From Deltaproteobacteria bacterium (GTDB taxonomy: Bacteria > UBA10199 > JACPAL01 > JACOUP01), in contig JACOUP010000008.1 in NCBI GenBank assembly GCA_016177765.1, forward strand, positions 1,275,165 to 1,339,164: a DNA stretch of 64,000 nt, written 5' to 3'. Numbering within the stretch: position 1 is the first letter of the stretch; each line of letters begins with the position of its first letter. The notes beneath the pieces are model-generated. The model was not told the origin of the DNA. It searched no databases and saw nothing but the letters and a program-made list of their open reading frames with translations. The position numbers and the translations under genes are program-made. Of this stretch, positions 15,765-35,776 are shown in pieces.

Positions 15765-16613
15765 TTACCGGCTAGAGCTGCGCACAAGAAAATTATTCCC
15801 GTGTCTTCTCAGTTTGTACATGTTGATATCGGATTTTAAGGCCATGGCGAGTTGATCCCTCGAGGCCTCCTTCCACTGGTCATTGACGATGGAAAAGTTC
15901 CTGCCACTCGCGACCTCTTTTCCCTGTTCACGGAGCCACTCTATGCAATGGTAGATATCATCCATGCTGGTTCCGACACCACTTTTCATAAACTCAACGA
16001 GTTGGGGGTACTTTTTGTCAGTTTTATCCATATGTTCCAGGGTAATAAAGTGAGTCTTCGTTTTTGTCCATCCGGGACCAACGATAAAAATGTTTAAATC
16101 CTCATTTTCTGCATCGAGAAATTCACACATTTTAATAAGCATGATTTTGGAAACGGTATAAGCGGAGAAATTAACTACGGCATTATTTGTCCCGCCGCCT
16201 GCAAAAAAGACAACATCGCATATCCCTTTTGTTTTTTTCATGGGGAACAACTGATGAAGCACCCGTAACTGCTCAATGGCATTGATATGAATCGATTCAC
16301 TCCATTCGTCAAAGTTGCACTTAAAAAAAGGGACATGCGGCAAGGGAGTGCAGGGACAGGAGATAAAAACATCCCAAGCTAAGTTTAATTTCTTGTACTC
16401 GCTTATCAATTGGTCGATGCTTTCCCTATTCCCCACGTCACAATGGTATAAATGGCATCCTGGGATATCTTTAAGCTGTTCCAAATTTTTCTCTGTGCGA
16501 TAAGTCCCAATAATTCGATGGCCTTCTCCTGAGTATCTTTTTGCCAAGGCTGTTCCAATATCACTGGTCACAGACAAAATAAAAATAGTCTTCTTTCCTG
16601 AGCTCGTTGTCAT
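15765..16613 (-). CDS. short-chain dehydrogenase/reductase
   Basis: 282-residue SDR. The N-terminal cofactor motif is TSDIGTALA (variant of TGxxxGxG), an acidic-loop segment follows, and the catalytic YTVSK (YxxxK) is present with an upstream FFAGGGTNN segment. Overlaps the stop/start region of the large cupin-ThDP fusion gene upstream by 4 nt, so the two are probably translated together and may act on the same intermediate. Reduction of the ketone left by ThDP carboligation is a plausible job, as YerF does after YerE in yersiniose synthesis, but this is inference. Confidence 0.8.
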   Translation of the reverse strand: MTTSSGKKTIFILSVTSDIGTALAKRYSGEGHRIIGTYRTEKNLEQLKDIPGCHLYHCDVGNRESIDQLISEYKKLNLAWDVFISCPCTPLPHVPFFKCNFDEWSESIHINAIEQLRVLHQLFPMKKTKGICDVVFFAGGGTNNAVVNFSAYTVSKIMLIKMCEFLDAENEDLNIFIVGPGWTKTKTHFITLEHMDKTDKKYPQLVEFMKSGVGTSMDDIYHCIEWLREQGKEVASGRNFSIVNDQWKEASRDQLAMALKSDINMYKLRRHGNNFLVRSSSR

Positions 16614-19243
16614 TCTAGAACCATATCTTCTTCGAGAAGGTTAACGAACATATTTTTTTTCAACTCTCGTTGGCCGAGGAAAGGATACATGTCTTCTAGA
16701 GGTTTCGCAATCCATCGTCCATCTTGCCTAACAGTGAGTGTTATTCGGGGTACGGTTTCACAATAATCCGGGAGTTCTACAGTACAGATTGCCGGACCGT
16801 CAGGCGCCAAGAGTTTTTTAATTTTACTCTTGAGTTGGTTTGGTTTTTGAATTGAATCCATCACGAGTTTTCGTTTTTTGTTGAGAAACAATAATTCAGA
16901 GAGATCATTACCTTTTTTGTAATTGAGTCCCGTAAATCTTTTGCCAAAATATATTGATTGGAGTTGTTGTACATTATGGTTGCTGTTTCTGCTGCTAAGA
17001 ATAAATATTTTAACAGGAAGTTCCAGTTCGCAAATTGTCTTGAGAGAATCAATATTTTTTTGAAACCCATTATTTTCACAGAGACAGATTATTTCCTTCC
17101 CGCTTCCTAGGCTAGCGCCCAGTGCTCCAGGAATTGAGAATCCCTGGTATTCAAGGCCGGGAGAAGAAATAATTCTTTGTCCCTTTTTTACTTTAAAGGC
17201 TTGCATGACATAATCTAGAGTAGAACCTCCATCAACTACTATAATGGCATCTTTGCTGAGAAGACCACTCAAGGCCTCAACAAAATGGTAAGGGTTAATC
17301 TCATAATCTTTTGTGGCCAAATTATAATCGTGATGAGGGGGGTATTTTTTCTTCCAGTATTGGCATTTTGAGATCCATGCATCGTACTGAAAACTTTTCA
17401 ATTGATTTAAGTATTGTCCCATCTCATTGAGGAATTCTTTGGCGTCAGCATTGATTTGCAGGTCAGCGTGAACCGTAGGTTTCTTCAATTCATCAGGATC
17501 AATATCGATTAATATCTTGAAAGCTTTACGGGCGAAGGCTTTGTAGGTTCTTCCTACAAGAGGAAGTGATAGGCGAGCCCCAATGGTTATTAAAAGATCA
17601 CAATTTTGGATGATGAAATTTGCCGACCTTTGTCCATAGGTACCAGGGCATCCAAAATAATTGGTGAAATCCTCTGGAACAAGATCAATTCCTCTCCGAC
17701 TTACGAGAAGAGGGACCGAAAGAGATCTGATAAGTCTGTAAAGTTCTTGTTCTGCTTTCGCTGCCCTAACGCCGTAACCGGCCAATATCACAGGTCTAGA
17801 GCTGGATTGTAATAGATCCAGAATCCTTTTTATATTGTCTTGCAGGTTATTGGAAAATTTGTAGATTGCAGACTTGTTTTGCTTTAATGAGGAAAGTTCT
17901 GACTCATCTATGTTGGTTCCAAGGATATCTATTGGGATGTCAAGCCATGCAGGCCCCTGTCTTCCTTCTAAGGCAGAGGTGATAGCCTGCTCAAGGTCTT
18001 CTTTAATACAGGATGCCTCCGAAACAACTTTAGCGTACTTGGTGATAGGGCGCACTATATTGACGATATCTATTTCCTTGTTGGCTAATTGCCGGATCTT
18101 CTGGTTTGCGGGCATGTCCAGATTACTTGATCTCGATTGGGCAGATATGATGAGAAGGGGCGTGGAGTCAATCCATGTGTTTGCAAGTCCTGTTAGGGTA
18201 TTCATTGCAGAAGAACCAGAAGAAACGACAACAACTGCCAGTTTGCCGGTGAGTTTGGTATAAGCTTCACCGGCCAGCATGGCGGTATTTTCCGTACTAC
18301 AACAAAGAGATTGAAGGTCTGTGTCACGTACAATGGCATCTACAAGGTGGGCATTAATGGTATCAACAACAAAGAAGAAATTTTTAATCCCCCTTTTCTT
18401 CAGGAAGGAAACTATGAAATCTGAGAGTCGTAGTGTAAGATCACTTTTCTTGACGATAATAATCTCGATAGGTTCTCGAAGTTGAATAAGATGTTTTTGG
18501 CCTAAAAACTCTTTCCTAGAAATAGAATCACCAACACCCAACAAAACCTTACCCACCCTATCCGTTATTTCCCCTTTGAGAAGAACGATGAGGTCCCAAT
18601 CTCCCTGGGTATGCTTGGTAAATGATTCTAGGCAATCGATCTTGTGTAATTCGATACCGGAGGGACCGAATCGCTTCTTTATGTTATAGTAAATGTTGGA
18701 GTCTATAAAGGAAATATAGTTGTAATTGTGTAGATTAATCGAAAGGTTGCTTAACCCCTCATACCCTAATTTTTCTCTGCCGTAGTCATCGACGGCCCTG
18801 ACCAAGTCTCTTTTGTTGACCGGAGTTTCAATTTCCATGACAAAGGTGCCGTTATCAGAAATTGATTTTGTACGGTGAAAAACATTATTTCCATAAACCA
18901 TTCCCTTACCAGCCTCACGGAGGTATTCTCCCTCTGCGGTTGAACAAACAGCCTTCCCAGAGAGTACAGTGATTGAGGTTTTTTTTGAGAGGTGGGCATG
19001 AAGAGATGTCTGATAATCCTTCTGAATGTACAGGATCCAGACAGCTACAGTATCATTTTGATAAATAAGATACTCATACCCCCATGGTTTTCTCACAACT
19101 CCCTTTGAGTAGTCAAAAAAATCATTCGACAGCTGACTTTTATCAAATATTGTTTTGTTAAGAAGGATATGATCATGAGGAGATGGTTCTGCCTTTCTAA
19201 TAATTATATCAGAACTGTATTTTAGTTTTTTTTCGCCGGACAT
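16610..19243 (-). CDS. cupin fused to acetolactate-synthase-like ThDP enzyme, degenerate ThDP/Mg site
   Basis: 877 residues. Residues about 48-165 form a cupin resembling the mannose-6-phosphate-isomerase domain of ManC (KPWGYEYLIY, then SLHAHLSKKT with His82 and His84), and residues 170-270 may be a second cupin-like part. From about 272 a complete three-domain ThDP-enzyme fold follows. The catalytic Glu is kept (STENTAML, Glu318). However, the Mg/diphosphate motif GDG is ENN (723-725), and the partner NN is SS (750-751), in an otherwise well-aligned region. The C-terminal tail (KPLEDMYPFLGQRELKKNM) is shared with the two other ThDP enzymes of the cluster. It may be a pseudoenzyme, a regulatory partner or an enzyme with altered cofactor use. 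Confidence 0.85.
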   Translation of the reverse strand: MSGEKKLKYSSDIIIRKAEPSPHDHILLNKTIFDKSQLSNDFFDYSKGVVRKPWGYEYLIYQNDTVAVWILYIQKDYQTSLHAHLSKKTSITVLSGKAVCSTAEGEYLREAGKGMVYGNNVFHRTKSISDNGTFVMEIETPVNKRDLVRAVDDYGREKLGYEGLSNLSINLHNYNYISFIDSNIYYNIKKRFGPSGIELHKIDCLESFTKHTQGDWDLIVLLKGEITDRVGKVLLGVGDSISRKEFLGQKHLIQLREPIEIIIVKKSDLTLRLSDFIVSFLKKRGIKNFFFVVDTINAHLVDAIVRDTDLQSLCCSTENTAMLAGEAYTKLTGKLAVVVVSSGSSAMNTLTGLANTWIDSTPLLIISAQSRSSNLDMPANQKIRQLANKEIDIVNIVRPITKYAKVVSEASCIKEDLEQAITSALEGRQGPAWLDIPIDILGTNIDESELSSLKQNKSAIYKFSNNLQDNIKRILDLLQSSSRPVILAGYGVRAAKAEQELYRLIRSLSVPLLVSRRGIDLVPEDFTNYFGCPGTYGQRSANFIIQNCDLLITIGARLSLPLVGRTYKAFARKAFKILIDIDPDELKKPTVHADLQINADAKEFLNEMGQYLNQLKSFQYDAWISKCQYWKKKYPPHHDYNLATKDYEINPYHFVEALSGLLSKDAIIVVDGGSTLDYVMQAFKVKKGQRIISSPGLEYQGFSIPGALGASLGSGKEIICLCENNGFQKNIDSLKTICELELPVKIFILSSRNSNHNVQQLQSIYFGKRFTGLNYKKGNDLSELLFLNKKRKLVMDSIQKPNQLKSKIKKLLAPDGPAICTVELPDYCETVPRITLTVRQDGRWIAKPLEDMYPFLGQRELKKNMFVNLLEEDMVLE

Positions 19244-19251
19244 GGTTTTAA

Positions 19252-19905
19252 TCAGGTGATCAGGTTTTGTATAATTTCAAGAGTTGCTAAATCAGAAAAG
19301 CGATCGATGATGAAATCAGCCTCTTTTAAGAAAGATTTATCTTGAGTTGATGCTATTGCAATACATAAAGCACCAGCGCTTTTGGCGGCTTGAATTCCTA
19401 TAAGGGCATTTTCAACAACGATTGATTCGTGAGGCAAAATAGAAAGCTCCCGCATCGCTTTTAGATAGGGATCTGGATACGGCTTTCCCCTCTCTACCTT
19501 GTCACCTGTTACAATGACATCAAACATGTTGAGAAACTGATGCGGTGTGGTATCAAACAATCTCTGACGGCTTCCAGCAGAGACAATAGCCATTTGTATT
19601 CTACTTCTCTTTAAGGCTGTTATCAGTGGAACTACCCCGGGGTAATTGTTGAATTTAAAATCTTTTTTAAAAAGTGCCTCTTTTGTTAGAATAACGTCGG
19701 ACGAATCGATGTTGCTGATGCCATATTTGGTAGTTATGATTCTAACGATTTCATCAAGTTGAACCCCCTCTAAGGGGAAATAATCTTCTCTTTGTAAAGA
19801 GATTCCGTATTTTTTGAAAGCCCCGTACCAAGCCTGATAATTGTATTCCATGGTGTCGGCCAAGACACCATCGAAATCGAAAAGCACGGCTTTAACAATT
19901 GTCAC
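19252..19905 (-). CDS. HAD-superfamily phosphatase / beta-phosphoglucomutase-like
   Basis: 217 residues, subfamily IA HAD hydrolase. Motif I is LFDFDGVLADT near the N-terminus with both Asp residues; motif II Ser lies in AIVSAGS, motif III Lys in GKPYPDP, and motif IV is near VVENALIGIQAAK. Acts on a small phosphorylated substrate, likely a sugar phosphate. In this cluster it could supply the phosphatase step between HddA-type kinase and HddC-type nucleotidyltransferase, for which no GmhB homologue is visible, but sequence alone does not show this. GTG start at 19905; no better start. Confidence 0.82.
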   Translation of the reverse strand: MTIVKAVLFDFDGVLADTMEYNYQAWYGAFKKYGISLQREDYFPLEGVQLDEIVRIITTKYGISNIDSSDVILTKEALFKKDFKFNNYPGVVPLITALKRSRIQMAIVSAGSRQRLFDTTPHQFLNMFDVIVTGDKVERGKPYPDPYLKAMRELSILPHESIVVENALIGIQAAKSAGALCIAIASTQDKSFLKEADFIIDRFSDLATLEIIQNLIT

Positions 19906-19916
19906 GAGTATGGTTT

Positions 19917-21926
19917 TTACTCTAAACCTGCCACGTGAGGATCGGCTTCTTTTTTAAATTTGAACCAAGGAATCTCTTTCACCCGGCAGTACGAGTTTAA
20001 CCCAGAAGCATGGGCGCGAACAACCGCCAAAAGATAATTAATGTCATTCCCCTTTCTTTCCTCTTTGTAAGAGGATTCAAATTCCAAAATACAAGGCTCT
20101 TTTAAAATCTCAACGCCATTTTTATTTTTCAATAAAGCATTAAAATACTCTAAAAGATTATATTCAAATTCCACATGAAACGGGACACGGCTTTTATTTA
20201 GTGGAGAAACCGCTTCCTGATACGAACAGACCTCTCTCACCAAAGGAACTTCATCACCGTGCCCCTTCTCAACGACAAACTCAACTGTTAAGTTTTTCAA
20301 TTCACGATGAAAATCTTCCTCACCGTGATAAGCTGCAAGAAAACAGATCTCGTGAGGTTCCCAGTGATACTCTGGATATCCCTCAAACGAAAGCATGTTG
20401 TCATCACCACGCAGAATTGAATCTGTATTACGATCGAGTTCTTTAAGCAATTTTGCCATCATTGGCGCGCGGCCGGGAGTTCGTCCGGCCTGAATCAGAT
20501 ATTCGATGAAACTTTTTGGTGTAATGGCATAATGTTCCCTTAAGAATTCTATGGTATAAAAAGCCACTTTCATATTATGCAGCGCCTTTAGGAGATACCC
20601 GAAGCAAAAAGCCCGACACCAATCAGGTACCGGCATTGACCTTGTGCCAACGATAGTTTCATCCACTTCATAAACATCCCGATTGACAGTGCGCTGTCGA
20701 AGTACAGTCGATTTTGTGAAACGCGTTTCAATGCCATACTGTTCACGATATTCCGGTTCAGCCATTTCTGAATTTGGTAAGGCATTGGTAAGATAAAGGG
20801 CAAAGTGATCTGTTGGTAAAGGCGACAGGACCTTCATTAAGCCATTGGTAAACGATTCGTACGTTTCACCGGGTAATCCCAGAAGAAGTTCAGAGTAGGT
20901 CTCAATGCCGCGTTCATTATATTCCTTCTTTAATGAGGCAAAGGTCTCCAAATCAATGTTGGTGCGTTTAATGGCCTCTAAGGTGTCTTCATCGAAAGAT
21001 TGCATGGACAACGTTACCATAAAACCCATTCCATTTCGACGCAAGGCATCCGCTATATCGATTGTTTTTTTACGAGAATTTTTCATCCAGTTAATCAGGA
21101 TATAACGCGGGGAACCTGTCGTCTTATGTAAGTGACCCAAATATTCTGCGATCTTCAAGTCACGTTCCTTGATGCCAAAATTGGCATCAGTTGCGAAAAT
21201 ATAAGGAATTTCATTCTTACTCATCCAGTCCATCTCACGGACAAGGCGCTCTTCCGTGTGTATAATGACTCGACTCTGCGTGACCTGTCCCCAGTCGCAA
21301 AATGTACAGGCAAAGGGACAACCTCGATTGGTTTCCCAGATCGTACCCGTAATCTGTTCTCTATGACGGGCCAAGATTTCATCGAATATTCCGGTTAAAA
21401 ATGGTGAGGGAACGAGATTCAAATCAGTAATACGTTCGCGCGGTGTAGTCTTGATATATCCACTCGGGCTTTCCTTGGAACGGAAACTTATTCCCTTAAC
21501 ATTGTTTAAATCTGAACCTTCCAGGAGCGCACGCAAAATTTCGACAAGGGTGATCTCCCCTTCCCCGTGAGCTAAGATATCAATAAATTCGTGTTGGGAA
21601 AGAAAATGACCAATGTCTGTTTCGTATCTGGGTATAGAGGGGCCTCCAAAAATAATGACACAATGCGGAAATCGTTCCTTGGCTTGCTTGGCCACTAGAA
21701 GGGATTGACGGATATTCCAGACATAGCCCGAAAATGCCAGAACCACAGGGTCAATCAATTCACTCACAACCTTGGCCGGTTCTTGTCTCAAGAAGTTAAT
21801 GGAAGTACGGTAATGACCTTTGAGAACAGGGTCTTCCCGAACGCAAGCAGCTAAAATACCGGCCGCAAGCGGTAAGAGACAACGCTCGCCCGCCGGATTA
21901 AATTGGTTGATGTACAGATTCTTCAT
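19917..21926 (-). CDS. B12-binding-type radical SAM protein
   Basis: About 669 residues. The N-terminal 160 or so resemble the cobalamin-binding domain of class B radical SAM enzymes (FGGPSIPR, HGEGE). The radical SAM core then begins with TNRGCPFACTFCDWG, whose CxxxCxxC binds the 4Fe-4S cluster. A long C-terminal region (from about 430) is unassigned. Homologues perform C-methylations and rearrangements in natural-product and sugar pathways. I start at ATG 21926, which overlaps the upstream stop (TGATG); a TTG lies one codon earlier. The pair with the DJ-1-like gene is tightly coupled. Confidence 0.86.
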   Translation of the reverse strand: MKNLYINQFNPAGERCLLPLAAGILAACVREDPVLKGHYRTSINFLRQEPAKVVSELIDPVVLAFSGYVWNIRQSLLVAKQAKERFPHCVIIFGGPSIPRYETDIGHFLSQHEFIDILAHGEGEITLVEILRALLEGSDLNNVKGISFRSKESPSGYIKTTPRERITDLNLVPSPFLTGIFDEILARHREQITGTIWETNRGCPFACTFCDWGQVTQSRVIIHTEERLVREMDWMSKNEIPYIFATDANFGIKERDLKIAEYLGHLHKTTGSPRYILINWMKNSRKKTIDIADALRRNGMGFMVTLSMQSFDEDTLEAIKRTNIDLETFASLKKEYNERGIETYSELLLGLPGETYESFTNGLMKVLSPLPTDHFALYLTNALPNSEMAEPEYREQYGIETRFTKSTVLRQRTVNRDVYEVDETIVGTRSMPVPDWCRAFCFGYLLKALHNMKVAFYTIEFLREHYAITPKSFIEYLIQAGRTPGRAPMMAKLLKELDRNTDSILRGDDNMLSFEGYPEYHWEPHEICFLAAYHGEEDFHRELKNLTVEFVVEKGHGDEVPLVREVCSYQEAVSPLNKSRVPFHVEFEYNLLEYFNALLKNKNGVEILKEPCILEFESSYKEERKGNDINYLLAVVRAHASGLNSYCRVKEIPWFKFKKEADPHVAGLE

Positions 21927-22441
21927 CAATTTTTTGTTTTATAGACCCTAAAAGTTTCCCTCATCCAGTCACCAAGATACTTGTAATGAGGGGAAGTAAT
22001 TAGATTTTCGTCGGTGACATAAGGAGCATCAATGTACTTGGCACCGGCATTATTAACATCGTCCTTGATACTGTAATACCCAGAGACATTTCTTCCTTTA
22101 ACGATATTTGCCGAGATCAAAAGTTGAGTTCCATGACAGATAGCGGCAATAACCTTGCCCGTCTTGTTAAAGTTTGTTATAAAATTGATTACTTCTTGGT
22201 CTTGACGTATATACTCCATAGCTTTAGCCCCGCCAGGCAAGACGAGAAGAGAGTAGTCTTTAACATCAATTCCTGTGATATCCCTGGTTGGAGTGATGGT
22301 GGTCCCAAGGATTCCCATCACTGTTTCTTTATTACGAATGGCCACATCCAGGGCAAAACCTTCCTCCTGCAGTCTATAGTAGGGATAAATAAACTCATGG
22401 TCCTGGACCTTCCTGCCGGTTATAATAAGTGCCCTTTTCAT
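21926..22441 (-). CDS. DJ-1/PfpI family protein
   Basis: 171 residues with the DJ-1/PfpI nucleophile elbow AAICHGTQLL (Cys-His) and upstream LVLPGGAKAMEYI, which carries the conserved Gly-Gly. Family members are glyoxalases, deglycases, chaperones or amidotransferase-like hydrolases; which applies here cannot be told. A strong ribosome site (GGAGGT, about 9 nt before ATG) distinguishes it from neighbours that rely on overlap, so it may begin a translational subunit. Its stop is fused with the start of the radical SAM gene. Confidence 0.85.
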   Translation of the reverse strand: MKRALIITGRKVQDHEFIYPYYRLQEEGFALDVAIRNKETVMGILGTTITPTRDITGIDVKDYSLLVLPGGAKAMEYIRQDQEVINFITNFNKTGKVIAAICHGTQLLISANIVKGRNVSGYYSIKDDVNNAGAKYIDAPYVTDENLITSPHYKYLGDWMRETFRVYKTKN

Positions 22442-30170: not shown

Positions 30171-31706
30171 TTATGTGTAATGAACCGTTTTCTCAAGTCT
30201 TGAAATTTTCTGCTCCACCTGCTCACTTTGAACCGGCAGATTGCCCGAATGTTCACAGGTAATAGCGGCTCCTATCGAGCCGAGAATGGAGGCGATGACA
30301 ATCTTGCCGGTCGCTTTCAGGGAGAGAGAGGCATAAGCCAAAAGGGCATCGCCACCCCCGATCGGATCAACGAGGCTATCAACAAGGCTATCCACGGTAA
30401 AAAATTCACGGGGGCCGGGTCCGGAACTTCGACAAGTGATAATTCCTCGATCCCCTAATTTGAGAATAAGATGCTTGCAGAATGCTCGGCGGAAGAGTTC
30501 GGAGGCCAATGGTCGGATGATCGAATCTTGGTCACCCAGGGCGAACCGGGCCTCTCGTTCATTAGGGGTGATGAGGTCAAAACCGGTAAAATCGAGGATA
30601 TTCCCCCAGCGATTCGAGACTTGGCTGTCCGCTACTTTTAATGAATGAGGCGGAATTCCCTGGCAGAGGTATTGAATCGTTTCACGGTTAAAGATCCCGT
30701 GGCGAAAATCACTCAGCACGACAATATCAGGGCTTGAACGACGCATTGACTCAATCATTTCGTTGAGGATTTTTTTAGAAACGGGTCGGTTATCCACTCG
30801 ATCCACTTGGAGCATTTTGTAATTGCTGGAGATGAAGCGCTCCTTATGGGTCGTTGGTCTTGTATGATCAACGGTTGGGTGACAAACAATCCCTGACTGG
30901 GCTAGGTCTTTCAGGACAAAATCTTTTAGGGAGTCCTTCCCCAAAACTGTTGAAAATGATACCTCGGCCCCCGCTGATTTCATATGTTTCGCGACCACGG
31001 CGGCCCCTCCTGCAAAAACGTCTGTATAGTCATGCTTCACGCTGAAAGTGGGTGATTTTGCCGTGGCCCCCAACAAAGAACAGTAGCTATAGGAATCAAC
31101 AATCGTATCTCCGATGACATGAACACGCAGGCCCCTCATCGCTTTAACGGCATTGCGCAGGTCATTAAAAGTGACATCCTCAGATTGCATGAGGGCCAAA
31201 AGCTTCTCTATTTTCAGATTGGGAGGTTGGGTTTCAATCAGGGACGACGAGGAATAAACAATGTCACCCGGCGTGAACACCATTTCTCCACCATAGGACT
31301 CGAGAGCCGAAACTTCGTCTTGAGTCTTTGGTGGAACTCCATTGGTGAAATATTCGTATCCCTTGGCAAAATAATCGGGCTGGAGATATTTTATATTGTC
31401 AATGGGTGTTGGATTTGAATCAATAATGACAAAGTCGACCATCTCGAGGGCCGCCAAATTGAGGGCCCTCAACTCTTCCGGGACGTAAGGCCGATAATTC
31501 GCCTTTTCGTTGTGTTTATCAGTCGTAATACTGGCGATCAAAATATCGGCTTTTTCCTTTGCATAAGCAAGGTGGCGCAGGTGACCTGGGTGGACAATAT
31601 CAAACATCCCGTGGCACATAATGACCTTTTTTGTTCGAGGTCGCGGTCCAATGAGGCTCGCCAAGTCTTGCAATGATTTGATCTTTCTGGAGTAAGCAGG
31701 CTTCAT
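30171..31706 (-). CDS. HldE-like fusion: nucleotidyltransferase plus PfkB sugar kinase, swapped order
   Basis: 511 residues. Residues about 25-165 are a cytidylyltransferase-like domain with the HxGH motif in MFDIVHPGHLRHL. Residues about 190-500 are a PfkB/ribokinase-type kinase with FAGGAAVVAKHM, TPNEREAR and the catalytic-Asp motif DPIGGGDALLAY. Canonical HldE has the kinase first and the adenylyltransferase second, so the domain order is reversed here. Expected role: phosphorylate a heptose (or related) phosphate at C1 and couple it to a nucleotide. Downstream neighbour is a GmhA-like isomerase. Confidence 0.87.
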   Translation of the reverse strand: MKPAYSRKIKSLQDLASLIGPRPRTKKVIMCHGMFDIVHPGHLRHLAYAKEKADILIASITTDKHNEKANYRPYVPEELRALNLAALEMVDFVIIDSNPTPIDNIKYLQPDYFAKGYEYFTNGVPPKTQDEVSALESYGGEMVFTPGDIVYSSSSLIETQPPNLKIEKLLALMQSEDVTFNDLRNAVKAMRGLRVHVIGDTIVDSYSYCSLLGATAKSPTFSVKHDYTDVFAGGAAVVAKHMKSAGAEVSFSTVLGKDSLKDFVLKDLAQSGIVCHPTVDHTRPTTHKERFISSNYKMLQVDRVDNRPVSKKILNEMIESMRRSSPDIVVLSDFRHGIFNRETIQYLCQGIPPHSLKVADSQVSNRWGNILDFTGFDLITPNEREARFALGDQDSIIRPLASELFRRAFCKHLILKLGDRGIITCRSSGPGPREFFTVDSLVDSLVDPIGGGDALLAYASLSLKATGKIVIASILGSIGAAITCEHSGNLPVQSEQVEQKISRLEKTVHYT

Positions 31707-33770: not shown

Positions 33771-34805
33771 TTAGTAAGGACCTTGAAAGTGCTCCTGAAT
33801 ATCTGTTAAGGGCTTGCGCAAGTCAACATCCAATTCCATCAAAGATTGGCATGCCTTCACAATGGATAATGGTGTTGGGTGGAAGGCCTCTTCGAGCGGT
33901 TTTGAAACGGGGGCTGGGCAATCCGCCTGCGCTAAGCGACGAACAGGGGCTTTTAAGTATTGCCATCCCTCTTCGGCTGCGAGAGCGGCAATCTCGGCTG
34001 TAAAACCGTAGAGATTCCAGCTCGTATCAGCGATAACAAGGCGACCCGTTTTTGCAATAGAGGCTAATATTGTTTCCCGGTCGAGGGGGCGTATACTTCG
34101 GGGGTCGATGACTTCGGCACTGACTCCCGATTCTTTTAAAATATCAGCGGCGCGAAGTGCTTCATACGCCATAAGAGAGGCGCCCACAATGGTAATATCT
34201 TTTCCCTCACGAACCACCCGAGCCTTGCCAAAAGGGATGGGAACCAGTTCTTCCGATACCTCTTCTTCGATTTGGTAACAGGCGCGGTTTTCAAACAACA
34301 GAACCGGCGTGTTGCCATGCAGGGCACTAATGATCAATCCTTTAACATCGGAAGGGAAGGCAGGTGCTATCACGTAAAGTCCTGGGAAATGGGCAAACAT
34401 CGTATGCAAACTCTGTGAATGTGTGGCCCCCTGGCCCCAACCCCTTCCTGTGATTCCACGAACTAACATGGGAACGGAATTCTTTCCCCCGAACATATAT
34501 TTCCACTTTGCCATCAAATTAATGATTTGGTCAGAGGCGAGAAACATGAAGTCATCACGAGCATGGACGACAACAGGCCTTTTCCCGGCGACTGCGGCTC
34601 CTGTAGCGATCCCGGCAAACGCATTTTCACAGTTCGGAATATCAAAAACACGATCCTTGCCAAAACGACGATAGGCTTCCAAGGTTGTTCCAAAAATACC
34701 ACGTGGATCATCAACGCCGGCACCGGCGATAAAAATATTCTTGTCTTCAGCCATACACTGGACGAGGGCCTCGCTAATCGCTTCCCAATATTTGAGTTTT
34801 CTCAT
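33771..34805 (-). CDS. ThDP enzyme E1 beta-like / transketolase C-terminal-like subunit
   Basis: 344 residues in the pyruvate-dehydrogenase E1-beta family: the CENAFAG segment carries the conserved Glu, GATHSQSLH the conserved His, and DPRSIRPLD opens the C-terminal transketolase domain. Overlaps the E1-alpha-like gene by 4 nt, so the two subunits are made together. No E2 or E3 gene is in the window, so a free carboligase or transketolase-like role is more likely than a dehydrogenase complex. Within a heptose-type branch it could move two-carbon units between sugars. Confidence 0.86.
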   Translation of the reverse strand: MRKLKYWEAISEALVQCMAEDKNIFIAGAGVDDPRGIFGTTLEAYRRFGKDRVFDIPNCENAFAGIATGAAVAGKRPVVVHARDDFMFLASDQIINLMAKWKYMFGGKNSVPMLVRGITGRGWGQGATHSQSLHTMFAHFPGLYVIAPAFPSDVKGLIISALHGNTPVLLFENRACYQIEEEVSEELVPIPFGKARVVREGKDITIVGASLMAYEALRAADILKESGVSAEVIDPRSIRPLDRETILASIAKTGRLVIADTSWNLYGFTAEIAALAAEEGWQYLKAPVRRLAQADCPAPVSKPLEEAFHPTPLSIVKACQSLMELDVDLRKPLTDIQEHFQGPY

Positions 34806-35773
34806 GAGTAGGTTCCCTCCAGTAGGCCTTTGGTATCTGGAAAGGGGAGTCCAACAACGGACTGGATGGTTTTTTCCACTTCAGTTTGGTATTCGTTCTT
34901 CCAAAGTTTTATTTGGTCTGGCGTACAGGCACCACGGCTCAAGGCAGTTTCCGAAGCCTGTTTAATCGGGCATCGTGCCATCCAATGGTCAATCTCTTTT
35001 TGGGTACGATAACCCTGTCCTGTGTCAAACAGCGGACCCACATGCTCACGCCAGCGATAGGTCATACACTCGAGAAAGAAAGGCCCTCCTTTCTTTCGGA
35101 TATCATTGATACCCTTAACAGCCGCTTCATAAACCGCTTCCACGTTGTTTCCATCCACCTGTTGTGCCAGCATCCCATAGGATTGGGCTCGTGCATAGAT
35201 AGGGATGTCGCGAGGTTGGCGTAGGTAAAGAGGGGAGTGAACGGAAAAAAGATTATTCTCACACACAAAAAGAACCGGCAATTTTCTCATGACCGCAAAG
35301 TTCATTGATTCATGAAATATCCCTTCTTCAACACAGCCATCACCAAAAAAAGTGACTGAAACATGAGGCCGATTGTCCATGGCAAAAGCAAAGGCAGTTC
35401 CCACCGCAGTGGCGATCGTTTCTCCCATGATGGCGGACGAAGCGATCATCCCCACCCCAGGATCATTCAGGTGGACCGACCCTCCTCGACCCCGGGCACA
35501 ACCGGCCTCCCGACCAAAGAGTTCCGCCACCATACCCAGGAGGTTGCCTCCCTTTGCGAGATAGTGGGCATGGCATCGGTGACCGCTATAGACAGCATCC
35601 TCCGTTTTAAGAGCTGCACAAACACCGACAGCCGTGGCCTCCTGACCAATTGAAAAATGGGTCGGTGTTCTCATTTCTCCCTCGGGGTACCTTGCGGCGA
35701 TAGTCTCCTCGATGGTGCGAATCCGCATCATTTTTCTCAAAAGTGAGATAAGCTGTTCGTTAGAGACAGGCAT
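34802..35773 (-). CDS. ThDP enzyme E1 alpha-like subunit
   Basis: About 323 residues. The ThDP motif is intact: FFGDGCVEEGIFHESMN through FVCENNLFSV (GDG...NN). Other family segments are HFSIGQEATAVG and SGHRCHAHYLAKGG. I take the ATG at 35773; an in-frame TTG is one codon upstream. Forms the alpha partner of the E1-beta-like protein encoded directly downstream. The donor substrate (2-oxoacid or ketose) is not evident. Confidence 0.86.
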   Translation of the reverse strand: MPVSNEQLISLLRKMMRIRTIEETIAARYPEGEMRTPTHFSIGQEATAVGVCAALKTEDAVYSGHRCHAHYLAKGGNLLGMVAELFGREAGCARGRGGSVHLNDPGVGMIASSAIMGETIATAVGTAFAFAMDNRPHVSVTFFGDGCVEEGIFHESMNFAVMRKLPVLFVCENNLFSVHSPLYLRQPRDIPIYARAQSYGMLAQQVDGNNVEAVYEAAVKGINDIRKKGGPFFLECMTYRWREHVGPLFDTGQGYRTQKEIDHWMARCPIKQASETALSRGACTPDQIKLWKNEYQTEVEKTIQSVVGLPFPDTKGLLEGTYS

Positions 35774-35776
35774 CAA

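Follow-up and report, generated by a model that had tools for sequence, protein, structure and literature searches.

A bicupin fusion conserved in scattered bacteria whose acetolactate synthase-like half appears to have lost its ThDP site

P0001 is an 877 aa protein encoded in the window, the whole 64,000-nucleotide stretch of Deltaproteobacteria DNA that was analysed, and consists of an N-terminal bicupin fused to some 600 residues of ThDP fold (here the ThDP-like domain) which, to judge from their sequence, form a conserved domain that has lost its ThDP site. Its gene belongs to a cluster for surface sugars, and the cupin half is well preserved. Seven genomes from at least three phyla carry this fusion, each with the same loss and each with an intact ThDP enzyme in the cluster, which argues for a conserved pseudoenzyme rather than a broken gene. 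It is proposed, with a probability of about 50%, that an active sugar-modifying bicupin is tethered to a ThDP pseudoenzyme which would dock on a real carboligase.

ThDP enzymes are recognised by their GDG...NN motif. The ORF of P0001 begins with an ATG and lies on the minus strand (Table 1), a detail not given in an earlier sequence-only reading of this DNA. Pfam places TPP_enzyme_N at residues 272-384, TPP_enzyme_M at 471-607 and TPP_enzyme_C at 672-821, so that the PYR, middle and PP domains (PF02776, PF00205 and PF02775) follow in order and all score above cut-off. The region from about residue 270 to 877 aligns end to end with the two other acetolactate synthase-like proteins of the cluster, of 606 and 595 aa; the sequence-only reading had claimed this for the part after residue 272, and alignment and Pfam agree. 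In this alignment ENN falls in the GDG column, SS in the NN column and Glu318 in the catalytic Glu column. Both replacements, as read from the sequence alone, are borne out by an alignment of 62 ThDP proteins and by the AlphaFold2 model of the ThDP-like domain (mean pLDDT 85.6), in which a strand at 718-723 followed by a helix at 724-729 lies at the expected place of GDG and a strand at 744-751 ends at SS, the expected place of NN. As the model secondary structure agrees with the alignment, the register of both motifs is supported. A misplaced motif was considered and rejected, since no GDG stands at any other place in P0001 and both the alignment and the modelled strands and helix point to 723-725 and 750-751. 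Residues ~270-877 are predicted to have the complete fold of acetolactate synthase and JanthE. The closest solved structure by sequence is 8rph (E 1.4e-85), which is JanthE (PMC12188165), and JanthE is also the best Foldseek match (target-normalised TM 0.93, 29% identity). The score of P0001 is far under all AHAS cut-offs; against TIGR00118 (acetolactate synthase), for example, it reaches 303.9 bits and not the required 538.35.

The extent of the loss was judged from those 62 proteins, 55 intact enzymes and the seven fusions, with the 63 columns of at least 90% conservation in the 55 intact relatives as reference and with ThDP-contacting residues presumed from general knowledge of AHAS structures. 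Sixteen of the 63 columns are lost in at least six of the seven fusions, mostly at ThDP motifs. The catalytic Glu has lost its neighbouring His and Gln, the GPG loop its Thr, Pro and Gly, the MG motif its Met and one Gly, GDG its two Gly and NN its two Asn; the others are a loop Gly, an Arg, a Thr downstream of the GPG loop, an invariant Gln and a Met after GDG. Structural columns stay: thirty-four of the 63 are kept in at least six fusions, among them all 14 of the middle domain, where column loss is thus 0/14 against 16/49 elsewhere (Fisher p 0.013). The GPG loop, canonical GDG and canonical NN are absent from all seven fusions. The GDG column reads ENN in the window, EDR in L031 and L032, EDH in L033, EIA in L034, DDY in L139 and DDT in L140, so that position 723 is always Glu or Asp and the Asp of GDG is retained in five of the seven; the NN column reads SS in the window, KS in L031, L032 and L033, IK in L034, NG in L139 and TG in L140. 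The catalytic Glu318, which the sequence-only reading had described as kept, is indeed present in the window, though L034 and L140 carry Ser in this column and only five of the seven fusions have Glu. Other columns of the PP half also vary between fusions, namely that of M432 (P, P, P, R, E, gap, Q) and that of G458 (R, R, H, A, Y, T, N). Near the pocket N297, H299, S341, S342 and K389 are fixed in all seven, the column of K389 being Gln in 55/55 intact enzymes. Single altered motif letters are also seen in intact enzymes: several partners in fusion and SAR11-type clusters have GEG instead of GDG (L031:10558-12393, L032:10653-12455, L033:10408-12240, L035-L039, L140:4760-6568), and many ThDP enzymes of viral contigs have the CDG of JanthE (L150-L169, L060). 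Enzymes with one such change, be it CDG in JanthE and its viral relatives or GEG in the partners, keep the remaining pocket.

A search for proteins of the same domain order yielded six further full-length fusions, to which the loss of GDG and NN is common while the replacing letters differ; the replacement in P0001 is therefore no mere coincidence. Four came from a scan of genome contigs, L031 being the unplaced MAG nzgw509, L032 SAR202 (Chloroflexota), L033 a Deltaproteobacteria MAG listed under Myxococcota and L034 an alphaproteobacterial single cell; L139 and L140 were found by cupin-profile search in the order of L034, and three of the six are alphaproteobacterial. These two were the only new fusions in cupin-profile searches that covered 46, 195, 294, 162, 294 and 247 genomes, and no fusion copy was found in viruses, phages or plasmids. 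According to the sequence-only reading the same fusion with a canonical motif would mark P0001 as a decayed copy; since no such protein was found among the six homologues, that argument falls away.

In a quick tree, with SH-aLRT as its only measure of support and without YerE sequences among its taxa, the seven ThDP-like domains form one branch (SH-aLRT 100) with long branches for L034 and L140. Over the same genome pairs, the ratio of identity among fusions to that among partners is 0.71 for PYR, 0.62 for PP, 0.91 for the middle domain and 1.05 for the C-terminal tail; PYR and PP are therefore relaxed, and the middle domain and tail are about as conserved as in the partners. For the closest pairs (L031-L033) synonymous sites are saturated and dN/dS is unusable; pN is 0.19-0.25 for the ThDP-like domain, similar for the attached cupin (0.21-0.24) and slightly lower for the partner (0.15-0.18). 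The domain is under purifying selection, has 62 invariant columns among the seven fusions and contains no stops. The idea of a decayed copy was rejected, since six other fusions share the loss and pN stays at these values although synonymous sites are saturated. The domain thus combines a conserved loss of catalytic residues with a retained fold and retained selection, as would be expected of a ThDP-family pseudoenzyme.

The N-terminal half forms two barrels in its AlphaFold2 model, at about residues 50-150 and 190-266. No Pfam cupin family matches it at cut-off, the hit to PF01050 (ManC/type II phosphomannose isomerase) reaching 15.6 bits against a required 23.6. Foldseek matches it to cupins such as oxalate decarboxylase and quercetinase; E falls as low as 3e-9, but the query-normalised TM is only 0.3-0.4. 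The two barrels, these matches and the invariant H82, H84 and H123 place it in the cupin superfamily. The sequence-only reading had announced a ManC-like cupin; the cupin fold has held, but it is a bicupin and ManC-like is too specific. Because twelve residues are invariant in 50/50 relatives (H82, H84, K87, H123, E137, E139, K144, D146, R149, D152, Y154 and R156) this half looks catalytic, and its fold and gene context suggest that the step is probably sugar isomerase- or epimerase-like.

Table 1. Features of the fusion gene and of the cluster in the window
Feature	Position	Strand	Basis or remark
Cupin-ThDP-like fusion P0001, 877 aa	16610..19243	-	ORF, translation, six full-length homologues
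Bicupin part, residues 1-268; putative active site H82, H84, K87, H123, E137, E139	18440..19243	-	AlphaFold2 pLDDT 85.1; invariant in 50/50 relatives
ThDP-like, putative pseudoenzyme part, residues 269-877	16613..18439	-	Pfam, Foldseek to JanthE, lost cofactor columns
Codon 318, retained catalytic-type Glu	18290..18292	-	62-protein ThDP alignment; Ser in 2/7 fusions
Codons 723-725, ENN in GDG column	17069..17077	-	62-protein ThDP alignment and model secondary structure
Codons 750-751, SS in NN column	16991..16996	-	62-protein ThDP alignment and model secondary structure
HAD phosphatase, recurrent in fusion loci	19252..19905	-	Pfam and locus comparison
B12-binding radical SAM protein	19917..21929	-	
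DJ-1/PfpI protein, constantly associated with cupin and ThDP genes	21926..22441	-	Pfam and locus comparison
Intact AHAS/YerE-like ThDP enzyme, 606 aa	22517..24337	-	Orthologue of the ThDP gene adjoining other fusions
Second intact ThDP protein, 595 aa	26880..28667		
HldE-like protein	30171..31706	-	
E1-type alpha/beta ThDP enzyme pair, two genes	33771..35776	-	Relatives near free-standing cupin in 50/80 viral contigs

At all seven fusion loci the cluster encodes a PfpI protein and an intact ThDP enzyme of the AHAS/YerE-like kind. The intact ThDP gene directly adjoins the fusion in six of them and lies three genes upstream in the window, and genes for HAD phosphatase, methyltransferase, HldE-like and NAD-epimerase proteins recur. 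As an E1-type pair is also present, the cluster of the window codes for three kinds of ThDP-fold proteins. Its HldE-like protein has a reversed domain order, with the nucleotidyltransferase (31-139) preceding the PfkB kinase (195-488), and has relatives of 48-58% identity in L032, L033 and L139. The radical SAM protein matches the KedN5 methyltransferase subfamily with 272 bits against a cut-off of 700.

The cupin also occurs without the ThDP-like domain. SAR11-type clusters are of the same kind and encode it as a separate gene near PfpI and a ThDP enzyme, and in four SAR11-type genomes no protein scored in the fusion range as a free-standing ThDP-like domain. Eighty IMG/VR contigs (L056-L135) carry the cupin alone, in ORFs of at most 249 aa; PfpI is nearby in 67, an AHAS-type ThDP enzyme in 20 and an E1 alpha/beta pair in 50, and PfpI plus a ThDP enzyme in 65. 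The cupin thus accompanies AHAS-type and E1-type enzymes alike, that is, ThDP chemistry whatever the enzyme type, and since SAR11-type and phage clusters do without the ThDP-like domain it is not essential to that chemistry. The cupin is likewise alone in G001. The INPHARED phage records gave no match to that of the window. At L141:7217-8971 (G932) a 585-aa ORF carries the same cupin at the C-terminus of an NAD-epimerase, and the surrounding cluster includes PfpI, HAD and E1 alpha/beta genes. In the cultured enterobacterium Rouxiella badensis a cupin relative on plasmid NZ_CP060593.1 (L149:10543-12263) adjoins a PfpI gene, and no ThDP gene was seen nearby.

In the reading preferred here the fusion is a bipartite element of a pathway for branched or modified sugars. 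On the simplest account the product of a duplicated carboligase gene ceased to be catalytic but could still assemble, and its fusion to the cupin would serve to bring the latter to the active carboligase. The bicupin would be the active part, probably carrying out an isomerase- or epimerase-type step on a sugar made or used by a ThDP carboligase, and the C-terminal 600 residues would no longer hold ThDP and would serve as a docking subunit. Its most likely partner is the cluster's own intact AHAS/YerE-like enzyme, an assembly in which cupin and carboligase would work jointly. This draws, for the seven fusions known, on the fusion itself, the conserved pocket loss, a fold predicted to be intact, purifying selection, the constant company of an intact enzyme and the free-standing cupins beside ThDP enzymes; that ThDP is not bound, that a physical complex forms and what chemistry cupin and carboligase perform are what we infer from them. 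Of the three roles envisaged by the sequence-only reading, a non-catalytic partner for the intact ThDP enzymes has the best support, from the loss of the pocket in 7/7 fusions, the fold, selection and the shared cluster, with the complex itself presumed. Against docking it counts that the five residues fixed near the pocket are not predicted by pure scaffolding, that SAR11-type and phage clusters do without the ThDP-like domain, and that no more than seven fusions are known.

Those fixed replacements and the acidic residue at 723 are compatible with a composite site or with the binding of a new ligand. In the main rival explanation the vacated pocket has been rebuilt for another ligand, such as a sugar phosphate, a nucleotide sugar or a pathway product, and the domain has become allosteric or newly catalytic. 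The invariant N297, H299, S341, S342 and K389, the last where every intact enzyme has Gln, and the constant acidity of 723 all fit this, but the replacements in the PP half (M432, G458 and NN columns) vary freely, for which reason one shared new ligand there is disfavoured; the rival as a whole is rather unlikely. The active site of ThDP enzymes is formed by two subunits, one contributing PYR and the other PP, a geometry that would allow the PYR half-site of the fusion, with Glu318, to be completed by the intact PP half-site of the partner in a one-site heterodimer of new specificity. Glu318 in five fusions and the smaller drift of PYR (0.71) than of PP (0.62) relative to the partners are in keeping with such a site, which is nevertheless improbable given the Ser of L034 and L140 and the GPG loop gone from all seven. 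More broadly, and tentatively, it is possible that an asymmetric complex with the carboligase either lends the altered PYR half-site to a composite site or binds a sugar in the vacated pocket, thereby setting acceptor specificity and delivering the cupin; if true, a ThDP carboligase for branched sugars would here be under the control of a pseudoenzyme.

The remaining alternatives fare worse. That the domain is a remnant in the course of being lost, which the useful cupin still carries along, would suit the free cupins of SAR11, phages and G001, the relaxed PYR and PP domains and the long branches of L034 and L140, but is improbable in view of the single origin without stops across at least three phyla, the 62 invariant columns, a middle domain and tail conserved like those of the partner, and a pN like that of the cupin. 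The sequence-only reading had also suggested a carboligase with unusual metal binding, and the catalytic Glu and the Asp of GDG, each kept in five fusions, the activity of JanthE with CDG (PMC12247030) and the GEG of several partners could be cited for a domain that still binds ThDP through an altered metal site. Yet in enzymes with CDG or GEG the pocket is otherwise intact, while every fusion has lost the GPG loop, the Met of MG, the two Asn and the invariant Gln; because the loss extends to these and the loop Gly, and the catalytic Glu is not universal, this is very unlikely. Its last suggestion, a sensor or regulator of the cluster, has a precedent in yeast Thi3p, a non-catalytic relative of pyruvate decarboxylase that acts as a thiamine sensor (PMC4299793), and is scarcely to be expected here, as a ThDP sensor should keep the very site that is lost and no regulator gene was noticed adjoining the fusion.

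A widely scattered, conserved lineage in which the motif is discarded, the fold kept, a cupin fused and a carboligase linked points to an undescribed organisation of C-C bond formation on sugars. The automatic label "acetolactate synthase" would be wrong for such fusion genes. Environmental phages and uncultured marine bacteria often carry the cupin/PfpI/ThDP gene module, and no known product was found for it. Neither such a fusion nor a pseudoenzyme of this clade was found described in the literature covered, which left most subscription journals outside.

Pseudoenzymes and non-catalytic proteins of the ThDP family such as Thi3p are already known kinds. Thi3p has the ThDP-decarboxylase fold in a non-catalytic role like that proposed here, but it is a thiamine sensor, whereas the fusion has a dismantled ThDP site, a cupin and a sugar cluster around it. 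The AHAS catalytic subunit shares the PYR-middle-PP order and overall fold with the ThDP-like domain and differs in that the fusion scores under the AHAS cut-offs, lacks the cofactor motifs and carries the cupin. Mannose-6-phosphate isomerase type II/ManC cupins and other bicupins have, like the fusion, a cupin fold with HxH and a later His; the fusion cupin is set apart from them by its sub-threshold PF01050 match, TM values of 0.3-0.4 and its own set of residues invariant in 50/50 relatives. The nearest likeness in sequence and fold is to JanthE (8rph/8rpi/8rpj), and the sugar-cluster setting is of the kind seen for JanthE and the YerE-like carboligases of C-branched sugars. JanthE, itself a YerE-like carboligase, has a CDG motif and is active with ketone acceptors (PMC12247030), whereas the fusion is without GDG, NN, GPG and the MG Met and bears an N-terminal bicupin.
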